DNA of 40,137 nucleotides. It comes from Rhodanobacteraceae bacterium (GTDB taxonomy: Bacteria > Pseudomonadota > Gammaproteobacteria > Xanthomonadales > Rhodanobacteraceae). Positions within the stretch are counted from its first letter, which is position 1. The number at the start of each line of letters is the position of its first letter. Below are positions 7,166 through 20,638 of this stretch, piece by piece. The stretch spans positions 1 to 40,137 of the forward strand of contig SCQS01000073.1 of assembly GCA_004299705.1 (NCBI GenBank). The letters run 5' to 3'. The position numbers were made by a program, and so were the translations under genes. The notes under the pieces were generated by a model. The model worked only from the letters and a program-made list of their open reading frames with translations, made no database searches and was not told the DNA's origin.

Positions 7166-9010
7166 GTGGATACGCATTCCTGGCTCGCATCGGTATTGGT
7201 ATTCCTGGTCGCGGTGGTGATCGCGGTTCCGCTGTCGCGCAAGCTGAAACTGGGCTCGGTGCTGGGCTACCTCGCGGCGGGTGTGGTGATCGGGCCGTTC
7301 GGGTTGAAGTGGGTGCACAACCCGGAAGCGATCTCCGGCGTGTCCGAGCTGGGCGTCGCGCTGTTGCTGTTCGTGATCGGTCTGGAGCTGTCGCCGCAGC
7401 GCCTGTGGGTGATGCGGCGCGCGGTGTTCGGCGCGGGCGCGGCGCAGGTGTTCGGCACGGCGCTGGTAATCGCTTTGATCGCGATCTACGGATTCCACCT
7501 GCAGCCGATTGCCGCCGCCGTGGTTGGCCTGGGCCTCGCGTTTTCCTCCACCGCGTTCGGTTTGCAGATCCTCGCCGAGCGCCGCGAGTTGCAAAGCGCG
7601 CACGGGCGGCAGGCGTTCGCGATCCTGTTGTTCCAGGACCTGGTCGCGATCCCGTTGATCGCGGCGATTCCGCTCTTGGCCAGTCATGGCGAACTGCACG
7701 CGACGGGCCAGCCATTGTGGCTGTCAGCGCTGCGGGTCGCCGGCGTGATCGCGGTGGTGGTGGTGGGCGGTCGCTACGCATTGCGGCCGGTGTTCCGCGC
7801 CGTGGCCAAGGCCGGCTCGATCGAGGTTTCCACCGCGGTCGCACTGCTGGTGGTGATGGGCACCGCGTGGCTGATGCAACTGGCTGGCATCTCGATGGCG
7901 CTGGGCACCTTCCTCGCGGGCGTGCTGCTGGCCGACTCGGAATACCGGCACGAGCTGGAATCCAACATCGCGCCGTTCGAGGGCCTGTTGCTGGGCCTGT
8001 TCTTCATCACGGTCGGCATGGGCGTGAACCTGAAACTGCTGACGCTGCACCCGTGGATGGTGGTGGGCCTGGTGATCCTGCTGCTGGCCTGCAAGGCACC
8101 GGCGCTGGCCTTGATCGGCCGCCTGAATTCGCGCATGCGCGACGTCGATGCGGTCAAGCTGGTGGCGCTGCTCGCGGGCGGCGGTGAATTCGCGTTCGTG
8201 GTGTTCAAGCTTGCGACCGAGCATGGCCTGCTGACGCGCACCCAGAACCAGGTGCTGGTGCTGGTGGTGACGCTGGGCATGGTCGCGGTGCCGCTGCTGG
8301 TGCTGGCGGCGGCGAAACTGCCGGCACCGAAGACACCGCAGCGCGAGTACGACACCATCGATAGCGGCGCACCGCGGGTGGTGATCGCGGGTTTCGGGCG
8401 GGTCGGGCAGATCGTGGGACGCCTGCTGCGCGCGCGCGGCATTCCGTTCGTGGCGCTGGAGAACTCGATCGAGCAGGTCGATCTTTCGCGCCGTTTCGCC
8501 GGCACCAACATCTATTTCGGCGACCCCGCGCGCGCGGAAATCCTGCGCGCGGCCGGTGCCGGCAAGGCCGAGGTGTTCGTGCTGGCGACCGACGATCCGG
8601 ACGCCAACGTGCGCACCGCACGCGTGGTGCGGCGGTTGTTTCCGAACCTCAAGATCGTGGCGCGTGCCCGCAACCGGCAACACGCGTTCCGGCTGATGGA
8701 CCTGACTTCCGATCCCGACGACGTTGTGCGCGAGACGTTCTATTCCAGCCTGAAGATGGCGGCGCTCACGCTGAAGGCGCTGGGCATGGGCAAGGACGCG
8801 GCACGCGCCAGCGTGGAACTGTTCCGCGAACACGACGAGAAACTGCTGCGCGACCAGCATCTGGTGTACGACGACGACGTGGCGCTGCGCCAGACCACGC
8901 GCGAGGCCTACGAGGAATTGCAGGGCCTGTTCGAAGCCGACAGCGCGCCGAGCAAAGAGGCGGCTACTCCACCGGATGCGTCATCAACGGCGTCACCACC
9001 GGTGCGTTGA
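7166..9010 (+). CDS. CPA2-family monovalent cation:proton antiporter with RCK (TrkA-N) domain
   Basis: An inner-membrane potassium or sodium/proton antiporter of the KefB/KefC-like CPA2 family, 614 residues. About twelve hydrophobic segments fill residues 5-385. A soluble TrkA-N domain follows, starting with VVIAGFGRVGQIVGRLL (about 404-420), a Rossmann fold that binds NAD(H), and continues with GDPARAEILRAAG and the TDD motif. The GTG start at 7166 follows the oligopeptidase stop by 12 bp, and the N-terminus (SWLASVLVFLVAVVIAVPL) begins directly with the first membrane helix. No KefF/KefG ancillary gene is adjacent, so a glutathione-gated function is not supported. The 3' end overlaps the convergent ankyrin gene by 47 bp. 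Confidence 0.9.
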   Translation: MDTHSWLASVLVFLVAVVIAVPLSRKLKLGSVLGYLAAGVVIGPFGLKWVHNPEAISGVSELGVALLLFVIGLELSPQRLWVMRRAVFGAGAAQVFGTALVIALIAIYGFHLQPIAAAVVGLGLAFSSTAFGLQILAERRELQSAHGRQAFAILLFQDLVAIPLIAAIPLLASHGELHATGQPLWLSALRVAGVIAVVVVGGRYALRPVFRAVAKAGSIEVSTAVALLVVMGTAWLMQLAGISMALGTFLAGVLLADSEYRHELESNIAPFEGLLLGLFFITVGMGVNLKLLTLHPWMVVGLVILLLACKAPALALIGRLNSRMRDVDAVKLVALLAGGGEFAFVVFKLATEHGLLTRTQNQVLVLVVTLGMVAVPLLVLAAAKLPAPKTPQREYDTIDSGAPRVVIAGFGRVGQIVGRLLRARGIPFVALENSIEQVDLSRRFAGTNIYFGDPARAEILRAAGAGKAEVFVLATDDPDANVRTARVVRRLFPNLKIVARARNRQHAFRLMDLTSDPDDVVRETFYSSLKMAALTLKALGMGKDAARASVELFREHDEKLLRDQHLVYDDDVALRQTTREAYEELQGLFEADSAPSKEAATPPDASSTASPPVR

Positions 9011-12000
9011 GCTGGACCGCGCGGCGCGGCGTCAATTCCATCGCCAAGTCCACGTAGCCGAGCACGCGCGCGACATCGGCCGGCGTGCGTTGCATGCAGT
9101 CGCGCGCCTCGCGGTTGGCGCCGCGTTGCAGCAGCACCCGCGCGGGCTCGAACATCGCGTGCATCGCGCAGGCGTGCAGGGCGGTGACGCCATGCTGGTC
9201 GGCGTGGTCGATGTCGGCGCCCGCATCCAGCAGCACCGGCAGCAGCGCGCCCAGGTGGGTGCCGTCGCAGTCGTTGCCGGGCTTGATGTGCACGCCCAGC
9301 AGCACCAGCAGTGGCGTGGTGCCGGCGCGGTCGGCGGCGTCCACGGGCGGTGCGCCACGCAACAAAGCGTCGATCAGGCGTCGGCAGCGCAGGCTGTCGC
9401 GGCTGTCGAAGCAGAAACGCGTGGCCGCGTGCAGCGCGGTCTGGCCACGTGCGTCGGTGAGATCCGCGCGCGCGCCGAGTTCGTGCAGCACGCCCAGCAT
9501 GTCGGCGTGTCCAAGCGCCGCGGCGATCATCAGCGCGGTCACCTCGTCGGCGTGGCGCATGTCGACCGCGGCGCCGGCCGCGACGAGCGCGCGCACGATG
9601 TCGGGGTGGCGCGCGCTGACGGCGGCCGACAACGGCGAGGCGCCGGTTTCCACCGTGAGTCGCGGATCGGCGTGTGCGGCCAGCAGGCGCTGCACACTCT
9701 GCAGCGCGCCGGCACCGCTCGCGCGCAGCAGCGCTGTGGCGCCGCGACTGTCGCGCTGGTCCACCGGCAGACCGAGTTCCAGCAGGCGCGCGACCGCATC
9801 GGGATCGGCGGCAGCGGCCGGCAAATCGTCGCCGCGCAGCGGGCGCCGGGGCAGCGCCCAACCGTTCCAGCGCAGCCAGTATTCGAGCTTGGTCGCGTCG
9901 CGCGCCAGCGCGAGGCCCAGCGGGGTTTCACCGCTGGCGGCAGGGCTTTCCGGGTCGGCGCCGTAGGCGATCAGCGCCTGCACCAACGGCAGCACCGCAT
10001 CAGGCGCGCCGTCCAGCGCGGCGTGCAACGGCGTGGCACCGGCGCGATCACGCACGTTGGGGTCGGCACCGCGTGCGAGCAGCGCTTTCAACACCGGCAA
10101 CAACGCGGGACGGCTGGCGTGATGCAGCGGTGTGCGATCGCTCGCGTCCGCGCCGAAGGCATCGGCGCCGCGTTCCAGCATCGTCAGTGCGAGCGCCGCG
10201 CCATCGTGTGCGTCACCCAAACGCGCCAACGAGTGTGCAAAGCGTCCGGCGCCCGCGGGCGTGGCGCCGGCGTCGAGCAGCTGGCGCACGGCGGCGGCCG
10301 AGCCGGGCAAACGATCGAGCAGGGCATCGAACAGCCGGCTGCCGTCGTCGAGGCGCGCTTCGGCGTCGAGGCCCTGCTCCAGTAAACCATGTTCCAGCAA
10401 CCATGCGCGCGGCGCGGCATCGGCGTGTTCGGCGAGGTCGAGAAACAGCGCCGCGAGTTCGTGGGTCGGCCAAGTCGCGACCCGCGCCTCGAAGCGCGCG
10501 ACCACCGACCAATGCCCGAAGCGCAGGGCATCGAGCAAATGTTGTGGTGTGTCCGCGCCGGCTTCGGGTTGGCTGGCCTGCGAATGGCTGGTGGGCACCG
10601 CGGCGGCGGGATCCATCAACGCGACCAGATCCCAGCGTCCCGAGACGCCGGCCTGGTCGATGGCGCTGCGCCCATCACCGCCCTTGCGCGCGGGATCGGC
10701 GTCGAGTTCCAGCAACGCGCGCACGCATTCGGCGTTGGCGCGCGGCGACTGGCAAGCCAGCATCAGCGCGGTACGTCCGTGCTGGTCGGCGGCGTGCACG
10801 TCGGGGTGTTTTTCCGCAAGCAATTTCACGATGCCGGTGGCGCCGGCGCGCGCGGCTTCCATCAGCGGCGTGGTGCCGTAGCGGTCGGCCAGCTTCGCGT
10901 CGGCGTTGGCATCCAGCAACACTCGCGCGATTTCGATGTGGTTTTCGCGCGCCGCGTGCAGCAACGCGCTGGCGCCCAGCGCATCGACCGCGTTGACGTG
11001 TGCCTTGTGCTTGAGCAGGGTATGCACGCCTTCAGGATCGTCGTCGGCGATCCCGGCGGCGGCGGGCAATGCGGCATCGGCGTGCGCGCCGTGTTCCACC
11101 AGGAAACGCAGTACCGGCCAGTTCGCGGCGGCGGCGGCGGCGCCGAGCGGCGTGGCCTGTTCGCGGTTGCGTGCTTCCAGCGGCGCTTGCGCATCGATCA
11201 GGATCGCCGCGACCGCGGGTTCCGCGCACAGCGCGGCGTGGTGCAGCGGGGTGTTGCCGTCGGCGTCGGCGCGCGCCGGGTCCGCGCCGTTCGCGACCAG
11301 GCTGGTAACCATTTCCGGACGGCCCTCGTGGCAGGCACGCGTGGTCGCCAGCAATGGCGTGAGGCCGGCGTGGGCGCGATTGACGTCGGCACCCTTCCCG
11401 ATCAACGCGCGCAGCAGGCGCGTGTCGGTCAGTTCGGCCGCGAGCACCAGGGCCGAGCGCTGGTCGCGCGCACCCGCGGGCGGTGTCGCGTTGGGATTCG
11501 CGCCTTGCGTCAGCGCTTCCAACGCCGCGGAAACATTGCCCACGCGCGCGGCCGCCAACAGGTTTTCATCGAGCACCGACTGCGCGGGCGCGGCCGCTTG
11601 TGCGACGGCCGTGGGTGCCGGGATGGGCGTGGACTCGGCTGCGTGATCGTCGGACACATTGTCCATTTCATTCGCGAGCATGCCGTCGCCCGGAGGCATG
11701 GGGCGCGGTTCGGTCGGGCCCGGCGGCAGTGGATCGAGGCGCGCGCGTTGGCCGCTGCACAGCAGGCGCAAGGTGCGGTTCGCGACGATCAGCGAGCACG
11801 CCGGCAGCACCAGCACCGCGAACAGGAACAACGCGGCGGTGCGGATTTCGTCAGGGAAACTGGCACCGACCCCGGCCAGTGAAAGCGCGCCGAACGCGAT
11901 CGCCAGTTGCGCCAGCGAGGCCGGCAGGAAGTGCGTGAAAAACAGGTCGTGCCGTTGGGTCAGGTGACGCGCGAAGCTGATGCTGCGCGCCAACGCGGCG

Positions 12001-12449
12001 GTGATCCAGGAATGCTGCTCGCCCGCGGGGAACGCATCGTCCCATTCGAACACCAGGCCGAATACCGGCCACACGCGCCACAGCACCACCAGCGTGATCA
12101 CCAGTGCCACGCACAGCCCCAGCGTCGCCACCAGCGAGGGTGCCTCGGAAAGTGCCATCAGCGGCCAGGCCACCAGCACGAACACCACCGCGGTATGGAT
12201 GGCCAGTGCGATCAAGTGCGCCGAGCCGCGCCTGAGCGCGGTGCGCACGAACGTTTCCCCGCAGCCGAAACCGATCGCGTGGCAAACCGCCGCCATCGAC
12301 AGCGACGCGCCGATCAGCAGCAACAGCAGTGAATAACGTTCCCACGCGGGCGGAATCCAGATCGCGAGGAACACGGCGACCAGCGAGGGGATGAAACAGG
12401 GCAGTGAGCGGGTCAGCGGCGGCCGACGTCGGGACTTGGCTTGAGACAT
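8964..12449 (-). CDS. Large membrane-anchored ankyrin-repeat protein
   Basis: The 1161-residue protein begins with roughly six hydrophobic segments (about 18-235, e.g. YSLLLLLIGASLSMAAVCHA). A polar linker (about 236-290) leads to ankyrin repeats that occupy almost all the remaining ~870 residues. Many units match the consensus G.TPLH.A...G....V..LL..GAD, for example GNTPLHHAAL, YGTTPLMEAARAG, GATPLHAALDG and HGVTALHACAMHA. I estimate about twenty repeats in two blocks, separated by a less regular stretch (about 610-700). Ankyrin repeats bind proteins, so a membrane-tethered scaffold is the likely role, but no partner is evident. A TATACT -10-like box lies about 27 bp upstream of the start, at 12476-12481. 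Base composition matches its neighbours. Confidence 0.88.
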   Translation of the reverse strand: MSQAKSRRRPPLTRSLPCFIPSLVAVFLAIWIPPAWERYSLLLLLIGASLSMAAVCHAIGFGCGETFVRTALRRGSAHLIALAIHTAVVFVLVAWPLMALSEAPSLVATLGLCVALVITLVVLWRVWPVFGLVFEWDDAFPAGEQHSWITAALARSISFARHLTQRHDLFFTHFLPASLAQLAIAFGALSLAGVGASFPDEIRTAALFLFAVLVLPACSLIVANRTLRLLCSGQRARLDPLPPGPTEPRPMPPGDGMLANEMDNVSDDHAAESTPIPAPTAVAQAAAPAQSVLDENLLAAARVGNVSAALEALTQGANPNATPPAGARDQRSALVLAAELTDTRLLRALIGKGADVNRAHAGLTPLLATTRACHEGRPEMVTSLVANGADPARADADGNTPLHHAALCAEPAVAAILIDAQAPLEARNREQATPLGAAAAAANWPVLRFLVEHGAHADAALPAAAGIADDDPEGVHTLLKHKAHVNAVDALGASALLHAARENHIEIARVLLDANADAKLADRYGTTPLMEAARAGATGIVKLLAEKHPDVHAADQHGRTALMLACQSPRANAECVRALLELDADPARKGGDGRSAIDQAGVSGRWDLVALMDPAAAVPTSHSQASQPEAGADTPQHLLDALRFGHWSVVARFEARVATWPTHELAALFLDLAEHADAAPRAWLLEHGLLEQGLDAEARLDDGSRLFDALLDRLPGSAAAVRQLLDAGATPAGAGRFAHSLARLGDAHDGAALALTMLERGADAFGADASDRTPLHHASRPALLPVLKALLARGADPNVRDRAGATPLHAALDGAPDAVLPLVQALIAYGADPESPAASGETPLGLALARDATKLEYWLRWNGWALPRRPLRGDDLPAAAADPDAVARLLELGLPVDQRDSRGATALLRASGAGALQSVQRLLAAHADPRLTVETGASPLSAAVSARHPDIVRALVAAGAAVDMRHADEVTALMIAAALGHADMLGVLHELGARADLTDARGQTALHAATRFCFDSRDSLRCRRLIDALLRGAPPVDAADRAGTTPLLVLLGVHIKPGNDCDGTHLGALLPVLLDAGADIDHADQHGVTALHACAMHAMFEPARVLLQRGANREARDCMQRTPADVARVLGYVDLAMELTPRRAVQLNAPVVTPLMTHPVE

Positions 12450-12781: not shown

Positions 12782-12841
12782 TTGCGCCAACCCCGCCGGG
12801 GTGCGATAGTCGCCATAACAAAATTCATACAAACGTATGAA
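12782..12841 (+). promoter_or_regulatory. Candidate sigma-70 promoter and palindromic operator of the fadL-like gene
   Basis: A TTGCGC box (12782-12787) and GATAGT (12805-12810) are separated by 17 bp. Just downstream is a perfect inverted repeat, TTCATAC-AAAC-GTATGAA (12824-12841), in a locally AT-rich patch. A palindrome immediately after the -10 box is a classic repressor position, and its form suits a TetR-family dimer of the kind that controls fatty-acid genes. The regulator identity is inferred; no regulator gene is nearby. Confidence 0.5.
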
Positions 12842-12902
12842 AGACGCGCGCGGCGCGACCCGCAGCCATAAACCACAAAATCAATCGACCGGAGACTCAC
12901 CG

Positions 12903-14264
12903 ATGAACAAGCAACTGATTTCAGCGCCGAAAGTGGCGGGCCTCGCGTTGGCCGCCTTGAGCGTGGCCGTGGCCGGGGCGCTGGTGAGCCCGGCAGCGTC
13001 CGCGTCCGGCTTCCAGATCAGCGAAAACACCGCGCAGGCGCTGGGCCGCGCGTACGCGGGTCGCGAGGCGGCCGGCAACGACGCCTCGGTGGTGCTGAAC
13101 AACCCCGCCGCGATGGTCGATTTCAACACCTATGCGGTGCAGCTGGATGCCACCGCGATCAACGTCAGCACCCAGTTCCACGGCGGCGGCACCGACGCGA
13201 TCGGCCAGCCGCTGACGGGCGGCAATGGCGGCAACGGCGGTGGCGTCTACGCCGTACCGGCGATCAGCTTCATCGCGCCGATCGCCCAGAACTGGCGGAT
13301 CGGCTTCGGCATCGACGCGCCGTTCGGTCTCAAGACCCAGTACGACGCCGGCTGGGTGGGGCGCTATTCGGCGCTCAAGTCCAGCGTGAAGTCGATGGAT
13401 CTCGTGGGTTCGGTGGCCTGGGCGATCAACCCGCAGTTCTCGCTGGGCTTTTCGGTGATCGCGCAGAAGACCACCATCGACCTTTCCCAGGCGGTCGATT
13501 TGGGCGCGGTGCTGGCGGCCAACCCGGCGCTGCCGCCGGGCATGTTCCTGCCGCAATCGGCGGACGGCTTCGCCGAAGTGCGCGGCGACAACTGGAAGTG
13601 GGGCTGGCAGATCGGCGCCGAGTGGAAGCCGACCGCGCAGGACACCTTGGCGCTGGATTACCACGCCAAGATCAACCACCAGATCAACGGCAAGGCGTAC
13701 TTCACGGTGCCGGCCAACGCGCAGGCCATCTTCTCGCAGCTCGGCCCGCTGGCGCCGTTCCAGAACACCTCGGCGTCGGGCGCGTTCGCGACCCCGGCCA
13801 TGGCTTCATTGAGCTACTGGCACAAGACCGAAGGCCCGGTGTCGTGGGGCGCGGAACTCGGCTGGACTGGCTGGAGTTCGTTCAAGCAGCTGGCGATCAC
13901 GTTTGGCAACCCGGCGCAGCCACCCGAGAACATCCAGTACAAGTGGCGCAACACCTGGTTCGGCTCGGTCGGCATGGATTACAAGTTGAGCGACACCTGG
14001 ACGCTGCGCGGCGGCCTGGCCTACGACCAGACCCCGACCCAGAACTTCTCGCGCGACCCGCGCATCCCTGACGGCGCGCGCAAGTGGATCGCGCTGGGCG
14101 TCGGCTACACGCCGGTGCAGGACCTGACCCTCAACATCGGCTATGCGCACCTGTTCGTCAACAGCGGCGCCGTCAACGACATGAGCGCGACCGGCGACAA
14201 CCTGGTCGGCAGCTTCGACAACTCCGGCGACCTGCTGGGCATTTCGATGCAGTACAAGTTCTGA
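12903..14264 (+). CDS. FadL/OmpP1-family outer-membrane long-chain fatty-acid transporter
   Basis: A 453-residue beta-barrel of the FadL/TodX/OmpP1 family that passes hydrophobic compounds, typically long-chain fatty acids, across the outer membrane. The ATG at 12903 is preceded by a GGAG Shine-Dalgarno sequence; a longer open frame starts 22 codons earlier but would hide the signal peptide. The signal peptide has a positively charged start (MNKQLISAPK), a hydrophobic core and cleavage near SASA/SGFQ. The mature start SGFQISENTAQALGRAYAG.EAA is the FadL hatch signature, followed by NDASVVLNNPAAM. The chain ends in aromatic MQYKF, as expected for BAM-dependent barrels. It is monocistronic, with a downstream repeat and terminator. 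The exact substrate is unknown. Confidence 0.92.
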   Translation: MNKQLISAPKVAGLALAALSVAVAGALVSPAASASGFQISENTAQALGRAYAGREAAGNDASVVLNNPAAMVDFNTYAVQLDATAINVSTQFHGGGTDAIGQPLTGGNGGNGGGVYAVPAISFIAPIAQNWRIGFGIDAPFGLKTQYDAGWVGRYSALKSSVKSMDLVGSVAWAINPQFSLGFSVIAQKTTIDLSQAVDLGAVLAANPALPPGMFLPQSADGFAEVRGDNWKWGWQIGAEWKPTAQDTLALDYHAKINHQINGKAYFTVPANAQAIFSQLGPLAPFQNTSASGAFATPAMASLSYWHKTEGPVSWGAELGWTGWSSFKQLAITFGNPAQPPENIQYKWRNTWFGSVGMDYKLSDTWTLRGGLAYDQTPTQNFSRDPRIPDGARKWIALGVGYTPVQDLTLNIGYAHLFVNSGAVNDMSATGDNLVGSFDNSGDLLGISMQYKF

Positions 14265-14278
14265 CCACACGTTCCACC

Positions 14279-14379
14279 ACCCCTTCCAACGGAAGGGGGT
14301 CGCTGCGCAGCAGCGGGGGGATGAGCGCTCGGATGAGAAAGCCATCCCCCTCATTCCCCCTTCCTTTGGAAGGGGGAGG
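14279..14379 (+). repeat. Multi-hairpin GC-rich repeat, copy B
   Basis: A full unit in order: outer hairpin ACCCCTTCC-AAC-GGAAGGGGGT, inner hairpin CGCTGC-GCA-GCAGCG, then GGGGGGATG. A spacer leads to AAAGCCATCCCCCTCATT and a last hairpin CCCCCTTCC-TTT-GGAAGGGGGAGG. GGGGGATG and CATCCCCC can pair across the spacer. It lies downstream of the fadL-like stop and upstream of its terminator. Confidence 0.8.
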
Positions 14380-14402
14380 TACGCTCGAAGCGCTTTTTGA
14401 CA

Positions 14403-14432
14403 AACCCCGCCCTCGTGGCGGGGTTTTTGTTT
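14403..14432 (+). terminator. Rho-independent terminator downstream of the fadL-like gene
   Basis: AACCCCGCC (14403-14411) pairs perfectly with GGCGGGGTT (14417-14425) across a five-base loop and runs into TTTTGTTTG. It is the clearest intrinsic terminator in the window. It should end fadL transcripts that pass through repeat B and insulate the permease promoter. Confidence 0.88.
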
Positions 14433-14500
14433 GCCTGTTTGCCTGTTTGCCGCGAAAGATGCAACTCCGGCACGCGCATGGCATCGCGCAAGCCGCGAAC

Positions 14501-14536
14501 ACTGTCCGCAGTGTCCGGACAGTGTCCGCGGACACT
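14501..14536 (+). promoter_or_regulatory. Cluster of TGTCCG palindromes: candidate enhancer-binding-protein site
   Basis: Within 36 bp there are three overlapping dyads. ACTGTCCG (14501-14508) pairs with CGGACAGT (14516-14523). TGTCCGGACA (14512-14521) is a perfect 10-bp palindrome. AGTGTCCGCGGACACT (14521-14536) is a perfect 16-bp palindrome. The cluster ends about 64 bp before the -24 element of the sigma-54 promoter, which suits an upstream activating sequence for a bacterial enhancer-binding protein. The activator's identity is unknown, and no such gene is in the window. Confidence 0.7.
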
Positions 14537-14598
14537 CTTTTCGTGATGTGCCGCCGCGCAACAGACTGATTCTGAACGGTAATTCTAGACCGTGACGT

Positions 14599-14615
14599 CG
14601 GCATGGCGCTTGCAA
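14599..14615 (+). promoter_or_regulatory. Sigma-54 (RpoN) promoter of the permease operon
   Basis: The sequence CGGCATGGCGCTTGCAA matches the consensus TGGCACG-N4-TTGCW. The GG (14600-14601) and the GC (14612-14613) have the obligatory 12-bp register, and TTGCA is exact. Transcription would start near 14625, leaving a leader of about 108 nt to the first permease start codon. The nearby upstream palindrome cluster supports the call, since sigma-54 needs an enhancer-bound activator. Confidence 0.75.
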
Positions 14616-14732
14616 CCATTGATACGGGGAGGTGGTGCGGCGAGTGGGTGCGGACGGTCTGTCCAGTCGGCCCGGGTGTCGCGTGGATGACGCCATCGAG
14701 CGGAATGCGCTCCGGGCAAAGGAAGGACGTGC

Positions 14733-16043
14733 ATGATCGGGTACTACTTTGATTTGGCCTTGCGCAGCCTGAAGCGCAGTCCCGGCCTCACCGCGCTGAT
14801 GGTGCTGTCGATCGGCGTGGGCGTGGCGCTGGCGATGTCCACGTGGACGCTGGAACACCTGATGTCCGGCGATCCGTTCCCGCAGAAGTCGGCCGAGATT
14901 TATTTCCCGACCATCGACATGTGGGGGCCAGCGGCGCACGCGAAGGCGTCGAATAGCAATGATCCGCCGGACTTGCTGGATTACGGCACCGCCGAAGCGT
15001 TGCTGCGCGACCATCGCGCGACGTATCAGGCGGCGGTGTATGCGGTCATACCGACCCTCGTGCCCGCATCATCCGATGTGCATCCTTTCAGGGAGTTCGG
15101 TTTCGCGGTGTCGGGTGAGTTCTTCCCGATGCTCGACGTGCCCTTCCGCTACGGCGCGGGCTGGAGCACTGCCGCCGATGCGGCGCGTGCGCAGGTGGTG
15201 GTGATCAGCGGCGAGCTCAACGACAAGCTGTTCGGTGGCGCCGACAGTGTCGGCAAGGTGTTGCGCATCGACGGACGTGAGTACCAGGTGGTGGGCGTGT
15301 TGGGCGACTGGCAGCCGCACCCCGCGTTCTACGCGATTCCTTCCGTGGGCGCCCTGCTGCAAAACTCGCCCGGGCTGTTCGTGCCCTTCGACACCGCGAT
15401 CGCCGCGCAGATGCCCGACGACGGCGGCACGGACTGTTTCAAGTCGCCCGAGGATTCCGGTTTCGCGGGCTTCCTGCGTTCGAGCTGCGCGTGGATCAGT
15501 TATCTCGTACAACTCGATTCGCCCGCCGCGGCGCGACGCTACGAAAACTACCTCACGGGCTTTGCGCAGCAGCGCTTCAGCTGGAAGCCGAACGTACGGC
15601 TGTACGGACTGATGGCGTGGCTGGACCACATGCAAATCGCGCAGGGTACCTTCCAGTTCCTGAAACTGGTGGGCGTCGGCCTGTTGATCGTGTGCCTGGT
15701 GGACACCATCGGGCTGATGCTGGCGAAGTTCCTGCGCCGCTCGGGCGAAATCGGCATCCGCCGCGCGCTCGGTGCCACCCGCCGCGCGATCTACGCCCAA
15801 TTCCTCACCGAGGCGGGCCTGATTGGCGTCGCCGGCGGCGTGCTCAGCATCCCGTTGACCTGGCTCACCATGCTGTGGATGCGATCGAAGATGGCGGTGG
15901 GCTGGCAATGGCTCACGCAGATCAACGTGAACCTGCTCGCGTGGACGGTGGCCGTCGCGATCGTCGCTACCGTGCTGGCTGCGCTCTATCCCGTGTGGCG
16001 CGCGGCGCATGTGCAGCCCGCGTGGCAGATCAAGTCGAATTGA
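14733..16043 (+). CDS. MacB/FtsX-type ABC transporter permease (unit 1, protein a)
   Basis: A 436-residue inner-membrane permease with the MacB/FtsX topology. One N-terminal helix (about 18-40, LTALMVLSIGVGVALAMS) is followed by a large periplasmic MacB_PCD-like domain (about 45-300) and three C-terminal helices forming the FtsX domain (about 310-430). The cytoplasmic loop carries EIGIRRALGATRRAI, the conserved segment facing the ATPase. A good Shine-Dalgarno (AAGGAAGGA) precedes the ATG. It heads a four-gene operon behind a sigma-54 promoter. Its closest relative in the window is the third gene (17453), with the same start (GYYxDLALxSxKRxPxLTALMVL). No ATPase gene accompanies it. The substrate is unknown; this type of transporter usually extrudes peptides, lipids or antimicrobials, or drives mechanotransmission. 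Confidence 0.88.
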   Translation: MIGYYFDLALRSLKRSPGLTALMVLSIGVGVALAMSTWTLEHLMSGDPFPQKSAEIYFPTIDMWGPAAHAKASNSNDPPDLLDYGTAEALLRDHRATYQAAVYAVIPTLVPASSDVHPFREFGFAVSGEFFPMLDVPFRYGAGWSTAADAARAQVVVISGELNDKLFGGADSVGKVLRIDGREYQVVGVLGDWQPHPAFYAIPSVGALLQNSPGLFVPFDTAIAAQMPDDGGTDCFKSPEDSGFAGFLRSSCAWISYLVQLDSPAAARRYENYLTGFAQQRFSWKPNVRLYGLMAWLDHMQIAQGTFQFLKLVGVGLLIVCLVDTIGLMLAKFLRRSGEIGIRRALGATRRAIYAQFLTEAGLIGVAGGVLSIPLTWLTMLWMRSKMAVGWQWLTQINVNLLAWTVAVAIVATVLAALYPVWRAAHVQPAWQIKSN

Positions 16044-16053
16044 GGACACGGCC

Positions 16054-17319
16054 ATGAACCTTCCCCCCACCCTCGCCGCACTGCGCAAGCACAAGGCCGG
16101 CGTGTTCCTGATCGGCCTGCAGGTCGCGTTGACTTTGGCGATCACGTGCAACCTCGTATTCATCGTCACTACCAATGCCGGGTACATCCACCGCCCGACC
16201 GGACTGGATGAAATCAACCTGTTCCTGATCGGCCAGTCCTTCGCGAACGCGCCGGTCGGCGATGACGCGGCGGCGCTCGAAAAACTCGATTCAATGCAAC
16301 TGACCGACCTCGCCACCCTGCGTGGTCTGCCCGACGTGCAGGATGTGTCGCCGGTCAGCAGCATGCCGCTGACCGGCAGCACCAACAGCGCCGACGTGTC
16401 GTTGAAGCCGGCGCAGATGCATGGCCTTGCCAAAGCCGCCCTGTTCTGGGTGGATGACCAGATCATCCCGACATTCGGGTTGCAGCTGGTCGCGGGTCGC
16501 GACTTCACCAGCGCCGACGTGCGGCATCTCGACCCCAACAGCAAGACCGCGCCCCCGCTGGTGATCGTGTCGCAGGCACTGGCCCACAAGCTGTACCCGC
16601 ACGGCGATGCGGTCGGCAAGCCGATCTGGCTGAACCAGAATACCGCGCCCAGCACCATCGTGGGCGTGGTGGCACGGCTGTTCACTTCTTCGCAACAGGC
16701 CCACACGGCAGCCGCGTACTACACGATCCTGATTCCCGCGCGGATCGACGCCGCCACGACTTTGTACGCCGTGCGCACGCGCCCCGGCCGGATGCGGCAG
16801 GCAATGGACGCAGCACGCAAGGCGCTGTTCCGGGTCGATCCGCTGCGGATCATGCAGCCGAACGGAAAGTATTCGATCATGGGCCTGCACACGTTCGCCC
16901 AGATCCGCGCCAAGGGCTATGCGCTGGAAATCGCGCTGGTGCAAATCCTGACCGCGATCACGGTGATCCTGCTGCTGGTGACCGGTGTCGGGATCACCGG
17001 CCTCACCAGTTTCTGGGTCGGCCAGCGCCACAAGCAGATCGGCATCCGCCGTGCGCTGGGCGCGACGCGCGCCAACATCCTGCATTACTTCCAGATCGAG
17101 AATCTCATCATCGCCGGTGGCGGCTGCGTCGTCGGCGTGGTGCTGGCGATCGGCATCGATCTGATGTTGCTGAAGATGTTCCAGACCGACCACCGCATGC
17201 CGGTGTGGTACGTGGCGATCGGCGTGATCGTGATCCTGCTGCTGGGGCAACTCGCGGTATTCGCGCCGGCGCGGCGTGCGTCCAAGGTGCCGCCGGTGGT
17301 GGCGACAAGGAGCGTGTGA
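16054..17319 (+). CDS. MacB/FtsX-type ABC transporter permease (unit 1, protein b)
   Basis: A 421-residue permease of the same superfamily but a different subtype. Its N-terminus is LAALRKHKAGVFLIGLQVALTLA, with a helix at about 18-40. A periplasmic domain follows (about 45-290), then the FtsX block (about 300-415) containing FWVGQRHKQIGIRRALGATRANILHYFQ. The start is taken at 16054, 10 bp after the upstream stop; a longer frame overlaps the previous gene. The fourth gene (18768) is its paralogue, and the two share the terminal sequence VPPVVATRSV. With the preceding gene it forms a probable heterodimer. Repeat copy C begins a few bases after its stop. Confidence 0.87.
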   Translation: MNLPPTLAALRKHKAGVFLIGLQVALTLAITCNLVFIVTTNAGYIHRPTGLDEINLFLIGQSFANAPVGDDAAALEKLDSMQLTDLATLRGLPDVQDVSPVSSMPLTGSTNSADVSLKPAQMHGLAKAALFWVDDQIIPTFGLQLVAGRDFTSADVRHLDPNSKTAPPLVIVSQALAHKLYPHGDAVGKPIWLNQNTAPSTIVGVVARLFTSSQQAHTAAAYYTILIPARIDAATTLYAVRTRPGRMRQAMDAARKALFRVDPLRIMQPNGKYSIMGLHTFAQIRAKGYALEIALVQILTAITVILLLVTGVGITGLTSFWVGQRHKQIGIRRALGATRANILHYFQIENLIIAGGGCVVGVVLAIGIDLMLLKMFQTDHRMPVWYVAIGVIVILLLGQLAVFAPARRASKVPPVVATRSV

Positions 17320-17324
17320 TGTTC

Positions 17325-17431
17325 ACCCCCTTCCAACGGAAGGGGGTCGGCGCGAAGCGCCGGGGGGGATGTTGTTCCAGCGAAGCAGAAAGCCATCCCC
17401 CTCGATCCCCCTTCGCAAGCGAAGGGGGAGG
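17325..17431 (+). repeat. Multi-hairpin GC-rich repeat, copy C (inside the permease operon)
   Basis: The full unit has outer hairpin ACCCCCTTCC-AAC-GGAAGGGGGT, inner hairpin CGGCGC-GAA-GCGCCG and GGGGGGGATG. A spacer then leads to AAAGCCATCCCCCTCGAT and hairpin CCCCCTTCGC-AA-GCGAAGGGGG, ending AGG. The inner hairpin differs in sequence from copy B but keeps perfect self-complementarity. The terminal GGGGGAGG lies six bases before an in-frame ATG at 17438, so the repeat may supply a ribosome-binding site for the next gene. Confidence 0.8.
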
Positions 17432-17452
17432 TAATGAATGGGAGCGCGTGAC

Positions 17453-18766
17453 ATGTTCGGCTATTACCTCGACCTCGCACTGCACAGCTTCAAGCGCAAT
17501 CCGGCGCTCACGGCGTTGATGGTGCTCGCGATTGCCGTGGGCATCGGCGCGAGCATGACGACGCTGACCGTGCTGCACGTGCTTTCCGGTGATCCGTTGC
17601 CCGGCAAGAGCGCCGACATTTATTACCCGCAGATCGACCCGCAGGACGCGCGCGGGATGATGCCCGGCACGATGCCGCCGGAGCAGGTCACCCTGATCGA
17701 CGGGGTGAACCTGCTGCGGGCAAAGCGTGCGGATCGACAAGCCTTGATGTTCGGCGGCGCGGTGCCGATCCAGCCGGATTCCTCCACGCTGGATCCTTTC
17801 TACGTGGAGGCGCGCTTCACCACTGCGGACTTCTTCCCGATGTTCGATGCGCCGTTTCTTTATGGGCATGGCTGGAGCGCGGCCGATGACCAGGCGCGTG
17901 CCCGCGAAGTCGTGATCACGCGGCGGCTCGACGACAAGCTGTTCCGTGGCGCGGACAGCGTGGGCCGCACCTTGCAGATTGGCGGCACGACGTTTCGCGT
18001 TGTCGGCGTGCTCGATCGCTGGCGCCCCAACCCGCATTTCTACGACCTCGATACCGGGGAATACGATTATTTCGAGCAGGTGTTCCTGCCCCTGCAAACC
18101 GCGATGGAGCTGCATTTCGACCACAACGGTTCCAGCGACTGTTGGGGCAATGGCACGGGCGGCAGCAACTCGGCGGGAATCTATCCCTCGCCGCAGTGCG
18201 TGTGGCTGCAGTTCTGGGTGGAACTGGACAGTCCGGCGAAGGCCGCCGCGTACAAGCAGTTTCTGATCCACTATTCGGAGGAACAAAGGGCGCTGGGTCG
18301 CTTCCAGCGCGCGCCGAACGTGCGCCTCGACAACCTCATGCAGTGGCTGGCTTACGAGCAGGTGGTGCCGAGCGATGTGCGCTTGCAGGCGTGGCTGGCG
18401 TTCGGCTTCCTGCTGGTGTGCCTGGTCAATACCGTGGGCCTGATGCTGGCCAAGTTCCTGCGTCGCTCGAGCGAATTGAGCGTGCGCCGCGCGCTGGGAG
18501 CATCCAAGCGCGCGTTGTTCGCGCAATTGCTGACCGAGGCCGGCGTGGTCGGAATTGCGGGCGGTGTCGGTGGGCTGTTGCTGGCGTTGCTGGGGTTGTG
18601 GCTGGTCAGGCGACGACCGTCCGACTACGCGGCGTTGGCGCATCTGGACCCGGCGATGTTGGCGGCCACGTTCGCGCTCGCGCTCGCGGCCAGCCTGATC
18701 GCGGGGGTATTGCCCGCGTGGCGCGCCTGCAACGTTGCGCCCGCCTTGCAAATCAAGAGCAACTGA
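17453..18766 (+). CDS. MacB/FtsX-type ABC transporter permease (unit 2, protein a)
   Basis: A 437-residue permease paralogous to the first operon gene. It shares MxGYYxDLAL at the start and a helix at about 17-40. The periplasmic domain opens with SGDPLPGKSADIYYPQID, and C-terminal FtsX helices follow a SELSVRRALGASKRALFAQLLTEAG loop. The loop reads SVRRALGA where unit 1 has GIRRALGA. The start at 17453 is chosen by alignment to the paralogue and by GGAG nine bases upstream. An in-frame ATG at 17438 sits behind the GGGGGAGG of repeat C and would add five residues; either could be used. It follows unit 1 after a 133-bp gap filled by repeat C, and the next start codon lies one base after its stop. 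Confidence 0.86.
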   Translation: MFGYYLDLALHSFKRNPALTALMVLAIAVGIGASMTTLTVLHVLSGDPLPGKSADIYYPQIDPQDARGMMPGTMPPEQVTLIDGVNLLRAKRADRQALMFGGAVPIQPDSSTLDPFYVEARFTTADFFPMFDAPFLYGHGWSAADDQARAREVVITRRLDDKLFRGADSVGRTLQIGGTTFRVVGVLDRWRPNPHFYDLDTGEYDYFEQVFLPLQTAMELHFDHNGSSDCWGNGTGGSNSAGIYPSPQCVWLQFWVELDSPAKAAAYKQFLIHYSEEQRALGRFQRAPNVRLDNLMQWLAYEQVVPSDVRLQAWLAFGFLLVCLVNTVGLMLAKFLRRSSELSVRRALGASKRALFAQLLTEAGVVGIAGGVGGLLLALLGLWLVRRRPSDYAALAHLDPAMLAATFALALAASLIAGVLPAWRACNVAPALQIKSN

Positions 18767-18767
18767 C

Positions 18768-20000
18768 ATGGACATCCTGCCCATCCTGAAGACATTGCGT
18801 CGGCACAAGGTCATCCTCTGGCTGCTGACGATCGAGATCGCGCTGACCTGCGCGATCGTGTGCAATGGCGTGTTCCTGATCACGCAGCGCCTGCATCACA
18901 TGGACATGCCCAGCGGCATTGCGGAGCATGATCTGCTGCTGGTCCGGCAGGCGCCGATCAAACCTTCGCCGGATCGCTACGCGCGGGCGCGGGAGGATCT
19001 TGTAGCGCTGCGGCAGATCCCGGGTGTATTGGCGGTCGGCATGACGAACCAGGTGCCGTTCGGGTGGGCATCGTCCAACGGCAATGTCATGCTGAAGCCC
19101 ACGCAGGCGCACCGCACCCTCGGTGCCGGCACTTACTGGGGCGAAAACCTGGTGCAGGCGTTCGGCCTGCATCTGATCGCGGGGCGCGATTTTGCGCCGG
19201 GGGAGTACGTCGACGCCAGTACGGTGATCCATGCGCTTGCCACCGGCGGCGATCAATTGTTCCCGCTGCCGACCGTGATTACGCACGCCCTGGCCGAGCG
19301 CTTGTGGCCACATCAAAATGCCTTGGGCAAGCTGATCTACTTGTCTCCGCAGGCGAGCATGCGCGTCGTAGGTGTCGTGGCGGGACTGGCGCGATCCAAC
19401 GCCTACAACACCGCGACCGCGCAGTACTCGCTGCTGGCACCGCTGCGCTTTGGTGCAGGCAAGGACCAGATCTATCTATTGCGCACGCGGCCGCAGGATC
19501 GCCGGCGGGTCAGGGCGGCCGCCGTTGCCGCACTCAAGCGGATCGATCCCGAGCGCGTGATTACCCACGTGCAGACCTTCGATGAAGTCCGCGACCAGTT
19601 TTTCCAGAACGACCGTGCGATGGCCGGCATGCTGGTCGGCGTGATCGTGGCGGTGTTGCTGGTGACGGGGCTGGGCATCGTCGGGCTTGCCAGTTTCTGG
19701 GTCGGCCAGCGCCGCAAGCAGATCGGCATCCGCCGTGCGCTGGGCGCGACGCGCGCCGACATTTTGCGTTACTTCCAGACCGAGAATTTCCTGATCGTCA
19801 CCTTCGGCATCATCGTCGGAATGGTGCTGGCCTACGGCCTCAGCCTGTTGCTGATGCAGCATTACGAATTGCCGCGCCTGCCGCTGTCCTATCTGCCGAT
19901 CGGCGCGATCGCGCTGTGGCTTATCGGCCAGCTTGCGGTACTGGGCCCGGCGTTGCGCGCCGCAGCCGTGCCGCCGGTGGTGGCGACGCGGAGCGTGTGA
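18768..20000 (+). CDS. MacB/FtsX-type ABC transporter permease (unit 2, protein b)
   Basis: A 410-residue permease paralogous to the second gene. The N-terminus (LKTLRRHKVILWLLTIEIALTCAIVCNGVFL) contains the first helix. The periplasmic domain spans about 45-285, and the FtsX block contains FWVGQRRKQIGIRRALGATRADILRYFQ. One base separates it from the preceding stop, so the pair is surely co-translated. Over 96 nt spanning the conserved FtsX motif (19692-19787) it is 94% identical in DNA to the unit 1 gene (17008-17103), far more than elsewhere. Repeat copy D starts six bases after its stop. It is the last gene of the quartet; no ATPase or HlyD-type adaptor follows. Confidence 0.87.
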   Translation: MDILPILKTLRRHKVILWLLTIEIALTCAIVCNGVFLITQRLHHMDMPSGIAEHDLLLVRQAPIKPSPDRYARAREDLVALRQIPGVLAVGMTNQVPFGWASSNGNVMLKPTQAHRTLGAGTYWGENLVQAFGLHLIAGRDFAPGEYVDASTVIHALATGGDQLFPLPTVITHALAERLWPHQNALGKLIYLSPQASMRVVGVVAGLARSNAYNTATAQYSLLAPLRFGAGKDQIYLLRTRPQDRRRVRAAAVAALKRIDPERVITHVQTFDEVRDQFFQNDRAMAGMLVGVIVAVLLVTGLGIVGLASFWVGQRRKQIGIRRALGATRADILRYFQTENFLIVTFGIIVGMVLAYGLSLLLMQHYELPRLPLSYLPIGAIALWLIGQLAVLGPALRAAAVPPVVATRSV

Positions 20001-20005
20001 GGTTT

Positions 20006-20125
20006 ACCCCCTTCGGAACACGAAGGGGGCCGAAGACGCTTGCTGCAGGCAAGCGGCTTCGGGGGGATGGCATTGACGGGCGGAGAGCCATCCCCCTCAT
20101 TCCCCCTTCCTGCGGAAGGGGGAGG
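20006..20125 (+). repeat. Multi-hairpin GC-rich repeat, copy D
   Basis: The unit has outer hairpin ACCCCCTTCG-GAACA-CGAAGGGGG and an enlarged inner hairpin, CCGAAGACGCTTGC paired with GCAAGCGGCTTCGG around a short TGCAG loop (one mismatch). GGGGGGATG, a spacer, GAGCCATCCCCCTCATT and hairpin CCCCCTTCC-TGC-GGAAGGGGGAGG follow. Additional related palindromes (CCTTTCGC-AA-GCGAAAGG) continue to about 20190, next to the DUF4168 gene end. It immediately follows the last permease gene. Confidence 0.8.
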
Positions 20126-20206
20126 AAAGGCGGCCTTTCGCAAGCGAAAGGGGAAGAAAATCCCTCTTCCGGCGGGTGGGGCGGAAAGGGGAGGCAAACG
20201 AATCGC

Positions 20207-20638
20207 TTACGACGTGGGCGGTTTCGGTTGCTGCATCAGCTTGATCAGTTTGGTGCGAACCTTGCTGTCGGTTTGCGCGACCATCGCGATCTGCTCGTAG
20301 CGCTGCACCGAGAGATCGTTGCTGCGCACTGCGGCTTCCATTTCCTGTTCGGCAGACTTTTGCAGTTTGGTGCGGTCGCCCGCGCTTTTCGCCTGCGCGA
20401 TCTGCGGCTGCGCGGTCTGCTTGATGGTTTCCACTTCGCGGGCGGCTTGCGCGAAATGCTGCAGTTCCGCATCGGTCGGGGCCGGTCCGGTGTTGGTGTG
20501 CGCGGCTGCCTGATTCTGGCTCGGGGCCTGTTGCGGTTGCGCTGCCGGTTGCGTCTGGGCGAGCGCCATGGGTGCCAGCATGCCGACACCGAGCGCCACG
20601 GCCACGGCGGCGCCCACTCGGTGAAGTCGCGGATTCAT
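20207..20638 (-). CDS. DUF4168 exported protein
   Basis: A 143-residue protein with a signal peptide (hydrophobic core AAVAVALGVGMLAPMALA, cleavage after ALA, near residue 28). A Gln/Ala/Pro-rich linker (about 28-50) leads to a helical DUF4168 domain that starts with TDAELQHFAQAAREVETI and ends with a QQPKPPTS tail. The ATG at 20638 has AGAGGA six bases upstream; the frame extends further but without a better start. DUF4168 proteins are small periplasmic or secreted proteins of unknown function found in many proteobacteria and cyanobacteria. It is transcribed alone, convergent with the permease operon. Confidence 0.85.
   Translation of the reverse strand: MNPRLHRVGAAVAVALGVGMLAPMALAQTQPAAQPQQAPSQNQAAAHTNTGPAPTDAELQHFAQAAREVETIKQTAQPQIAQAKSAGDRTKLQKSAEQEMEAAVRSNDLSVQRYEQIAMVAQTDSKVRTKLIKLMQQPKPPTS

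Follow-up and report, generated by a model that had tools for sequence, protein, structure and literature searches.

The window, by which we mean the whole 40,137-nucleotide stretch analyzed here, is contig C66 of a 3.6-Mb genome (G000) and carries four permease genes on the forward strand, arranged as two type 1/type 2 pairs. Permease 1 (14733–16043, type 1), permease 2 (16054–17319, type 2) and permease 3 (17438–18766, type 1) pass the Pfam cut-offs for both MacB_PCD and FtsX; permease 2 was scanned in a longer form, and an alternative in-frame ATG upstream, at 16009, is possible. Permease 4 (18768–20000, type 2; scanned as the open reading frame from 18735) matches FtsX and falls 0.2 bit under the MacB_PCD cut-off, leaving three of the four with both matches. 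The quartet thereby has the MacB periplasmic core and FtsX domain of MacB-type ABC exporter permeases, and permease 1 matches MacB (5nik) at 2.6e-11 over its own C-terminal part. None of the genome's 42 ABC ATPase matches lies on the window contig.

A PutA gene lies downstream of the quartet; in another genome (G005), a permease pair resembling those of the window, and preceded by a promoter of the type described below, adjoins a PutA-like gene, as judged by eye. Upstream is a FadL-type gene (open reading frame 12837–14264, family Toluene_X), whose transcripts more likely end at a probable intrinsic terminator on the forward strand (14402–14426, a 10-pair stem followed by a T run) than at the palindrome described below. 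The reverse strand upstream of the FadL-type gene encodes an ankyrin-repeat protein of 1161 residues whose N-terminal part is hydrophobic (8964–12449), and similar short stretches rich in CCCCCTTCC and GGAAGGGGG flank the permease operon (14281–14380 and 20003–20180).

Probable control region of the quartet

The core of the putative promoter is a forward-strand -24/-12 element, CGGCATGGCGCTTGCA, at 14599–14614. Direct reading places GG at 14600–14601 and GC at 14612–14613 with ten bases between them, the GG-N10-GC arrangement of sigma-54-dependent promoters. A 16-position matrix trained on 76 non-redundant promoters from other loci (two from the same genome, the window itself excluded, each less than 75% identical to one another and to the window) ranks this position first over both window strands, at 14.3 bits with a runner-up at 9.7. 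The score lies below the training-site median of 21.5, the training sites having been pre-picked for good consensus. The bare GG-N10-GC pattern is frequent, and 30 window sites match 9 of 12 consensus positions. Transcription is predicted to start at 14625 on the forward strand, 12 nt past the GC, by what we take to be the usual sigma-54 promoter geometry. No sigma-70-like site was found in 14200–20250, an absence which says little because shuffled sequences yield just 0.9 such sites on average.

Upstream, three TGTCCG half-sites (at 14503, 14512 and 14523) form an enhancer-like cluster at 14503–14536, which includes TGTCCGGACA at 14512–14521 and a perfect 16-bp palindrome, AGTGTCCGCGGACACT, at 14521–14536; the palindrome also satisfies a loose terminator rule. 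Sixty-three bases separate the end of the palindrome from the first G of the -24 element, and the last TGTCCGCGGACA dyad starts 77 bp before that GG. This dyad has one exact copy in the window; five further matches carry two mismatches, and 15 of 100 shuffles contain an equal number of matches. Between the cluster and the -24/-12 element lies an IHF-like box, CAACAGACTGATT (14559–14571), located 41 bp upstream of the -24 GG and agreeing with 8 of the 9 fixed positions of YAANNNNTTGATW, presumably the IHF consensus. The preliminary description of this DNA had reported both the GG-N10-GC register and the TGTCCG cluster with its palindrome; both are borne out by direct reading, and the first also by the top matrix score.

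Recurrence in the genome and its relatives

The genome encodes exactly one RpoN (PF04552 match, 1.2e-66) and contains four copies of TGTCCGCGGACA, on the window contig and on contigs C11, C27 and C44. The window, C11 and C27 copies belong to intergenic clusters with a -24/-12 element at 77, 77 and 78 bp, respectively, from the start of the last dyad, and these three promoters face the window quartet, an adaptor operon and a pcm-tolC pair. The C44 site lacks a -24/-12 element and was rejected as a promoter of this type, nor do the lone TGTCCG words within the C11 cluster resemble promoter sites. At C27, the promoter faces pcm and a TolC-type gene, and a TetR gene (TetR_N, TetR_C_7) points away from it.

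The C11 promoter starts a cluster encoding an adaptor, an ATPase, a 99-residue protein that matches no Pfam family and ten FtsX-type permeases. An HlyD-type adaptor and a TolC-type channel are encoded away from the quartet and preceded by the same promoter type. The C11 ATPase is a separate 243-residue protein, in contrast to E. coli MacB, in which the ATPase is fused to the permease. After the last permease come a MazEF-like toxin-antitoxin pair, assigned by eye (L026:10765–11348), an NtrC-type response regulator that we call bEBP-A, and a kinase. One C11 permease is split into two frames of 290 and 148 residues (L026:12822–14153), reflecting either a frameshift or an assembly error; counting it once, the genome has 14 paired permeases, ten in C11 and four in the window. 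In a comparison with all ten C11 permeases, window permeases 1 and 2 are nearest to one C11 pair, at 55% identity each (c15588 and c14087). Permease 3 is 52–53% identical to c9717 and c12596, and permease 4 is 46–48% identical to c11222, c5496 and c8243; by identity, pair 3–4 is nearest to the next C11 pair along (53 and 48%), with another pair equal by score. Judging by these identities, the quartet may possibly have arisen as a copied segment of the C11 array.

Across 148 genomes of the order, TGTCCGCGGACA is present in 95 and a reversed control motif in 18. When a -24/-12 element is also required at 62–72 bp from the dyad, 68 genomes (the present one included) retain a match and the reversed control retains none (0/148). 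All 68 fall among the 88 genomes of the window's family (G000–G087), which appears to be Rhodanobacteraceae; the joint pattern occurs in 0 of the 60 genomes of the order outside it. Adaptor loci give a similar picture: 35 were found and 32 examined, leaving out one truncated locus (L093) and two with 22–28% identity (L095 and L096). Of these, 30 have TGTCCGCGGAC upstream, followed by a -24/-12 element, and 27 have the perfect 12-mer; some belong to the same organisms as the surveyed genomes, so that locus and genome counts are not independent. In one locus (L063) the dyad promoter sits farther upstream of the adaptor, in another (L092) about 111 bp separate the dyad from the -24/-12 element, and a third (L065) is cut by a contig end.

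The spacing within the 76 matrix promoters is narrow. The dyad-to-GG distance is 77 bp in 20, 78 in 16, 79 in 19, 80 in 17, 81 in three and 82 in one, so that 72 fall at 77–80 bp; because the promoters were selected by a range of 72–83 and a good -24/-12 consensus, only the clustering within that range is informative. In 46 of the 76, the highest-scoring IHF-like match falls at -42 or -41, and 48 reach an IHF-like score of at least 7 of 9, as compared with about 11 expected. One pcm-tolC promoter (L230) has its -24/-12 element about one helical turn closer, at +66. Activator-type sites at a conserved distance, as befits a sigma-54-dependent promoter, are thus found both in the genome's other promoters and in relatives. 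The upstream enhancer and the sigma-54 promoter proposed in the preliminary description both gain support from this comparison, and its suggested search of related genomes for the motif near -24/-12 elements, together with NtrC-family and FtsX-type genes, gave a positive result. The region upstream of the quartet very probably acts as a sigma-54 promoter whose enhancer is common to many related bacteria.

A looser form of the arrangement extends farther. A half-site survey covered the adaptor loci of 27 of 30 chosen genomes, the other three (G009, G038 and G068) having no close adaptor; the 27 include families f2, f3, f4 and f12 as well as genera in which the perfect dyad is absent, and many lack the perfect motif. 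At least two TGTCCG/CGGACA half-sites precede the best -24/-12 element in 23 of the 27 loci, and the half-sites total 84 against 1.5 expected from shuffles (the gene start assumed for L157 probably lies downstream of the true one, which does not affect the -24/-12 element and half-sites read there). Since half-sites precede so many of these elements, the TGTCCG half-site seems older or more widespread than the perfect dyad. Against the main reading stand the missing joint pattern in the 60 genomes outside the family, the window's own -24/-12 element, which is weaker than most, the four exceptional adaptor promoters (L172, L177, L180 and L181), where half-sites number fewer than two, and the poor -24/-12 scores of L177 and L178.

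The genes behind such promoters are diverse. Among 36 loci chosen for holding the motif, a fitting -24/-12 element was found at 34 sites in 33 loci, and none at L219, L223 and L233. First downstream genes, classified by eye, are an adaptor operon at one site, permease pairs at eight, pcm-tolC at four, a small membrane peptide followed by trmL-, ubiJ- and ubiB-like genes at seven, an alpha/beta hydrolase at three, a beta-lactamase-family gene at two, DUF4097 with a two-component pair at two, and NlpC/P60, DUF899 and DUF4440 at one each; four are not clearly assignable. A family scan of eight first proteins covered two of the beta-lactamase family and one each of the hydrolase, small peptide, DUF4097, NlpC/P60, DUF899 and DUF4440 types; the DUF4097 match is just above its cut-off, and the scanned small peptide has no Pfam family. 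A 57–71-residue peptide with a hydrophobic start recurs as first gene at L232, L236, L240, L243, L247, L249 and L250. Dyad sites at L229, L237, L238 and L245, which lie inside a gene or lack a clear target, were rejected as regulon members. The suggestion that the site could define a regulon of its own is supported comparatively, with a membership wider than the permeases first envisaged and including the adaptor, the ATPase, pcm-tolC and others.

Candidate activator and competing explanations

The best candidate for the activator, judged from sequence comparison, is bEBP-A (G000:C11:116404–117744), which closes the adaptor cluster together with the kinase. It has the REC, sigma-54 AAA+ and Fis-type HTH domains and the GAFTGA loop of an NtrC-type regulator (some orthologs read GAYTGA), and its receiver domain carries a loop, DMNFSADTTSGEEG, that is alignable to PDB 2qr3. 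Of the 88 family genomes, 83 have an ortholog with E below 1e-160, and the recognition helix reads SRQALYRR in 46 of 47 orthologs, G135 having TRQSLYRR; L101 yielded no protein and is left out. Of the 68 joint-pattern genomes, 63 (the present one included) have both bEBP-A and a site among the matches listed. In 47 of these 63, bEBP-A is preceded, at 6.2–38 kb and in the same orientation on its contig, by a motif promoter (median 17 kb, among the matches listed); in the other 16, many of them drafts, the matches listed include no such site upstream of bEBP-A on its contig, a point against this association. The quartet is probably switched on via one dedicated two-component regulator encoded elsewhere, and the comparative evidence favors the earlier proposal of such a distant activator, bEBP-A being encoded on C11 and not on the window contig.

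Several genomes depart from this association. G009 has no close match to bEBP-A, the kinase or the adaptor, which counts against bEBP-A; its pcm-tolC promoter nonetheless keeps the dyad, the IHF-like box and the -24/-12 element, pointing to a recent loss, an incomplete draft or another factor at work there. In two drafts bEBP-A was not found, together with the kinase in G015, which has the adaptor and motif, and alone in G002, which has the adaptor, motif and kinase. G038 lacks the system and retains a kinase remnant of 58 residues at 86% identity (G038:C1:1745354–1746298) some 0.75 kb away from a surviving copy of the motif, which fits joint loss.

The genome encodes eight full bEBPs, and among the seven besides bEBP-A only one, bEBP-B, has a similar recognition helix (ISRQSLYRRL); the other six were set aside as activators, their helices being different. 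A sigma-54 regulon in which this paralog, or both proteins, activates the window promoter appears unlikely. The operon of bEBP-B does have a TGTCC-N6-GGACA dyad before a -24/-12 element, so that bEBP-B might share sites, but the dyad spacing differs in that promoter, the loop of bEBP-B reads GAFTDA instead of GAFTGA, and only one of the 20 genomes searched yielded a close ortholog (72% identity), although joint-pattern promoters are present in 17; in 14 of the 20, the best match to bEBP-B was bEBP-A itself. The paralogous system (L028:5399–11986, on G000:C51) comprises an ATPase, a large permease, bEBP-B and a two-helix kinase, and its promoter carries TGTCCATAATCGGACA and TGGCACGCAACTTGCC.

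Two further explanations were weighed. The TGTCCG dyads could be operators of the TetR-family (AefR-like) repressor encoded beside pcm-tolC, with incidental -24/-12 elements: in all six pcm-tolC loci examined, which belong to one genus, the TetR gene and pcm-tolC diverge from either side of the dyad, and the TetR gene is retained in G009, where bEBP-A was not found. This would leave the fixed distance of the dyad to a conserved -24/-12 element and an IHF-like box unexplained, and among 70 motif sites (adaptor and motif loci, the window and C11), 67 of them with a called upstream gene, a TetR-like upstream gene occurs at only four, all pcm-tolC; we consider repression of this kind very unlikely. 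Chance would require a GC-rich palindrome or terminator-like hairpin to lie beside a fortuitous GG-N10-GC, and both the frequency of that pattern (the 30 window sites at 9 of 12) and the palindrome's passing of the loose terminator rule speak for it; a like arrangement precedes related operons in many genomes and the control matches none, which makes coincidence scarcely credible. The sigma-54 promoter with bEBP-A as its predicted activator is the reading that we develop below.

A proposed sigma-54 exporter circuit

We think it quite likely, on the sequence evidence, that 14503–14614 controls a satellite permease operon belonging to a sigma-54 regulon, and that the regulon is governed by the following circuit. 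A two-helix membrane kinase would phosphorylate the neighboring response regulator bEBP-A, which would then bind the TGTCCG dyads as an oligomer; IHF would bend the DNA between the enhancer and the -24/-12 element, allowing the GAFTGA loop of bEBP-A to contact RNA polymerase-sigma-54, with ATP hydrolysis opening the promoter. One signal would also turn on the adaptor-ATPase-permease cluster and pcm-tolC, and the window pairs would consequently be produced at the same time as the locally missing ATPase, adaptor and outer-membrane channel. All would assemble into a single MacAB-TolC-like exporter, in which the window pairs would serve as alternative permease modules; use of the C11 ATPase by the satellite permeases is our inference. 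The likeliest guess for the exported substance is a peptide or another envelope-active compound. Hydrophobic stretches at residues 13–31 and 35–53 of the kinase are separated by a near-zero loop, and the same two-helix, almost loop-free build is shared by intramembrane-sensing kinases; it leaves room for sensing of the exporter itself.

The combination of sigma-54 with an enhancer, an NtrC-type activator and IHF-type bending is a machine of a known kind. NtrC, ZraR and DctD-type systems share with the present one a -24/-12 element, upstream dyads, a REC-AAA+-Fis HTH regulator with GAFTGA and, between dyads and promoter, an IHF-like site; they differ from it in the ABC exporter regulon as target, the TGTCCG enhancer and the receiver loop. 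The resemblance to MacAB-TolC lies in the MacB_PCD and FtsX permeases and in the presence, behind promoters of this type, of an HlyD-type adaptor and a TolC-type channel, whereas here the ATPase is separate and type 1 and type 2 permeases are paired, ten of the permeases forming one array and others lying apart as satellites. Bce-type modules of Firmicutes, which sense peptides, likewise encode a two-helix kinase with a very short loop together with FtsX-type permeases; unlike in those modules, the activator here would work on sigma-54, and an adaptor and TolC are involved. A bolder and rather doubtful extension would be a sigma-54 exporter regulon of interchangeable parts, in which one ATPase, adaptor and TolC are common to paired permeases that were copied with their enhancer to new places, and a kinase with almost no outside domain may read exporter activity, as a sigma-54 counterpart of Bce flux sensing.

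Control of COG0577 FtsX-like permeases by sigma-54 has been predicted in silico, with such promoters enriched in gamma-Proteobacteria, Opitutia and Bacteroidia (PLoS One 2025; PMC12316311). Sigma-54 promoters preceding ABC permease genes of the same kind are therefore common to that prediction and the present system, and the preliminary view that MacB-like permeases are no textbook RpoN regulon has to be qualified, control of FtsX-like permeases having already been predicted there. The enhancer motif, cognate regulator, tolC link and satellite operon are not described in the accessible part of that paper (PMC12316311). The literature covered, which excludes most subscription journals, yielded no description of this enhancer, regulator, pcm-tolC link or satellite permease operons, and the exact 12-mer TGTCCGCGGACA appeared there only in one unrelated paper on a human gene.

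For a regulon widespread in one family, apparently Rhodanobacteraceae, the analysis supplies a precise enhancer motif, the geometry of the promoter and a candidate activator; a looser form of the promoter precedes adaptor genes in other families of the order. A general prediction, that sigma-54 acts on FtsX-type permeases, becomes a testable circuit, and one that offers a route to scattered genes whose products may cooperate, among them permease modules, tolC and accessory genes.
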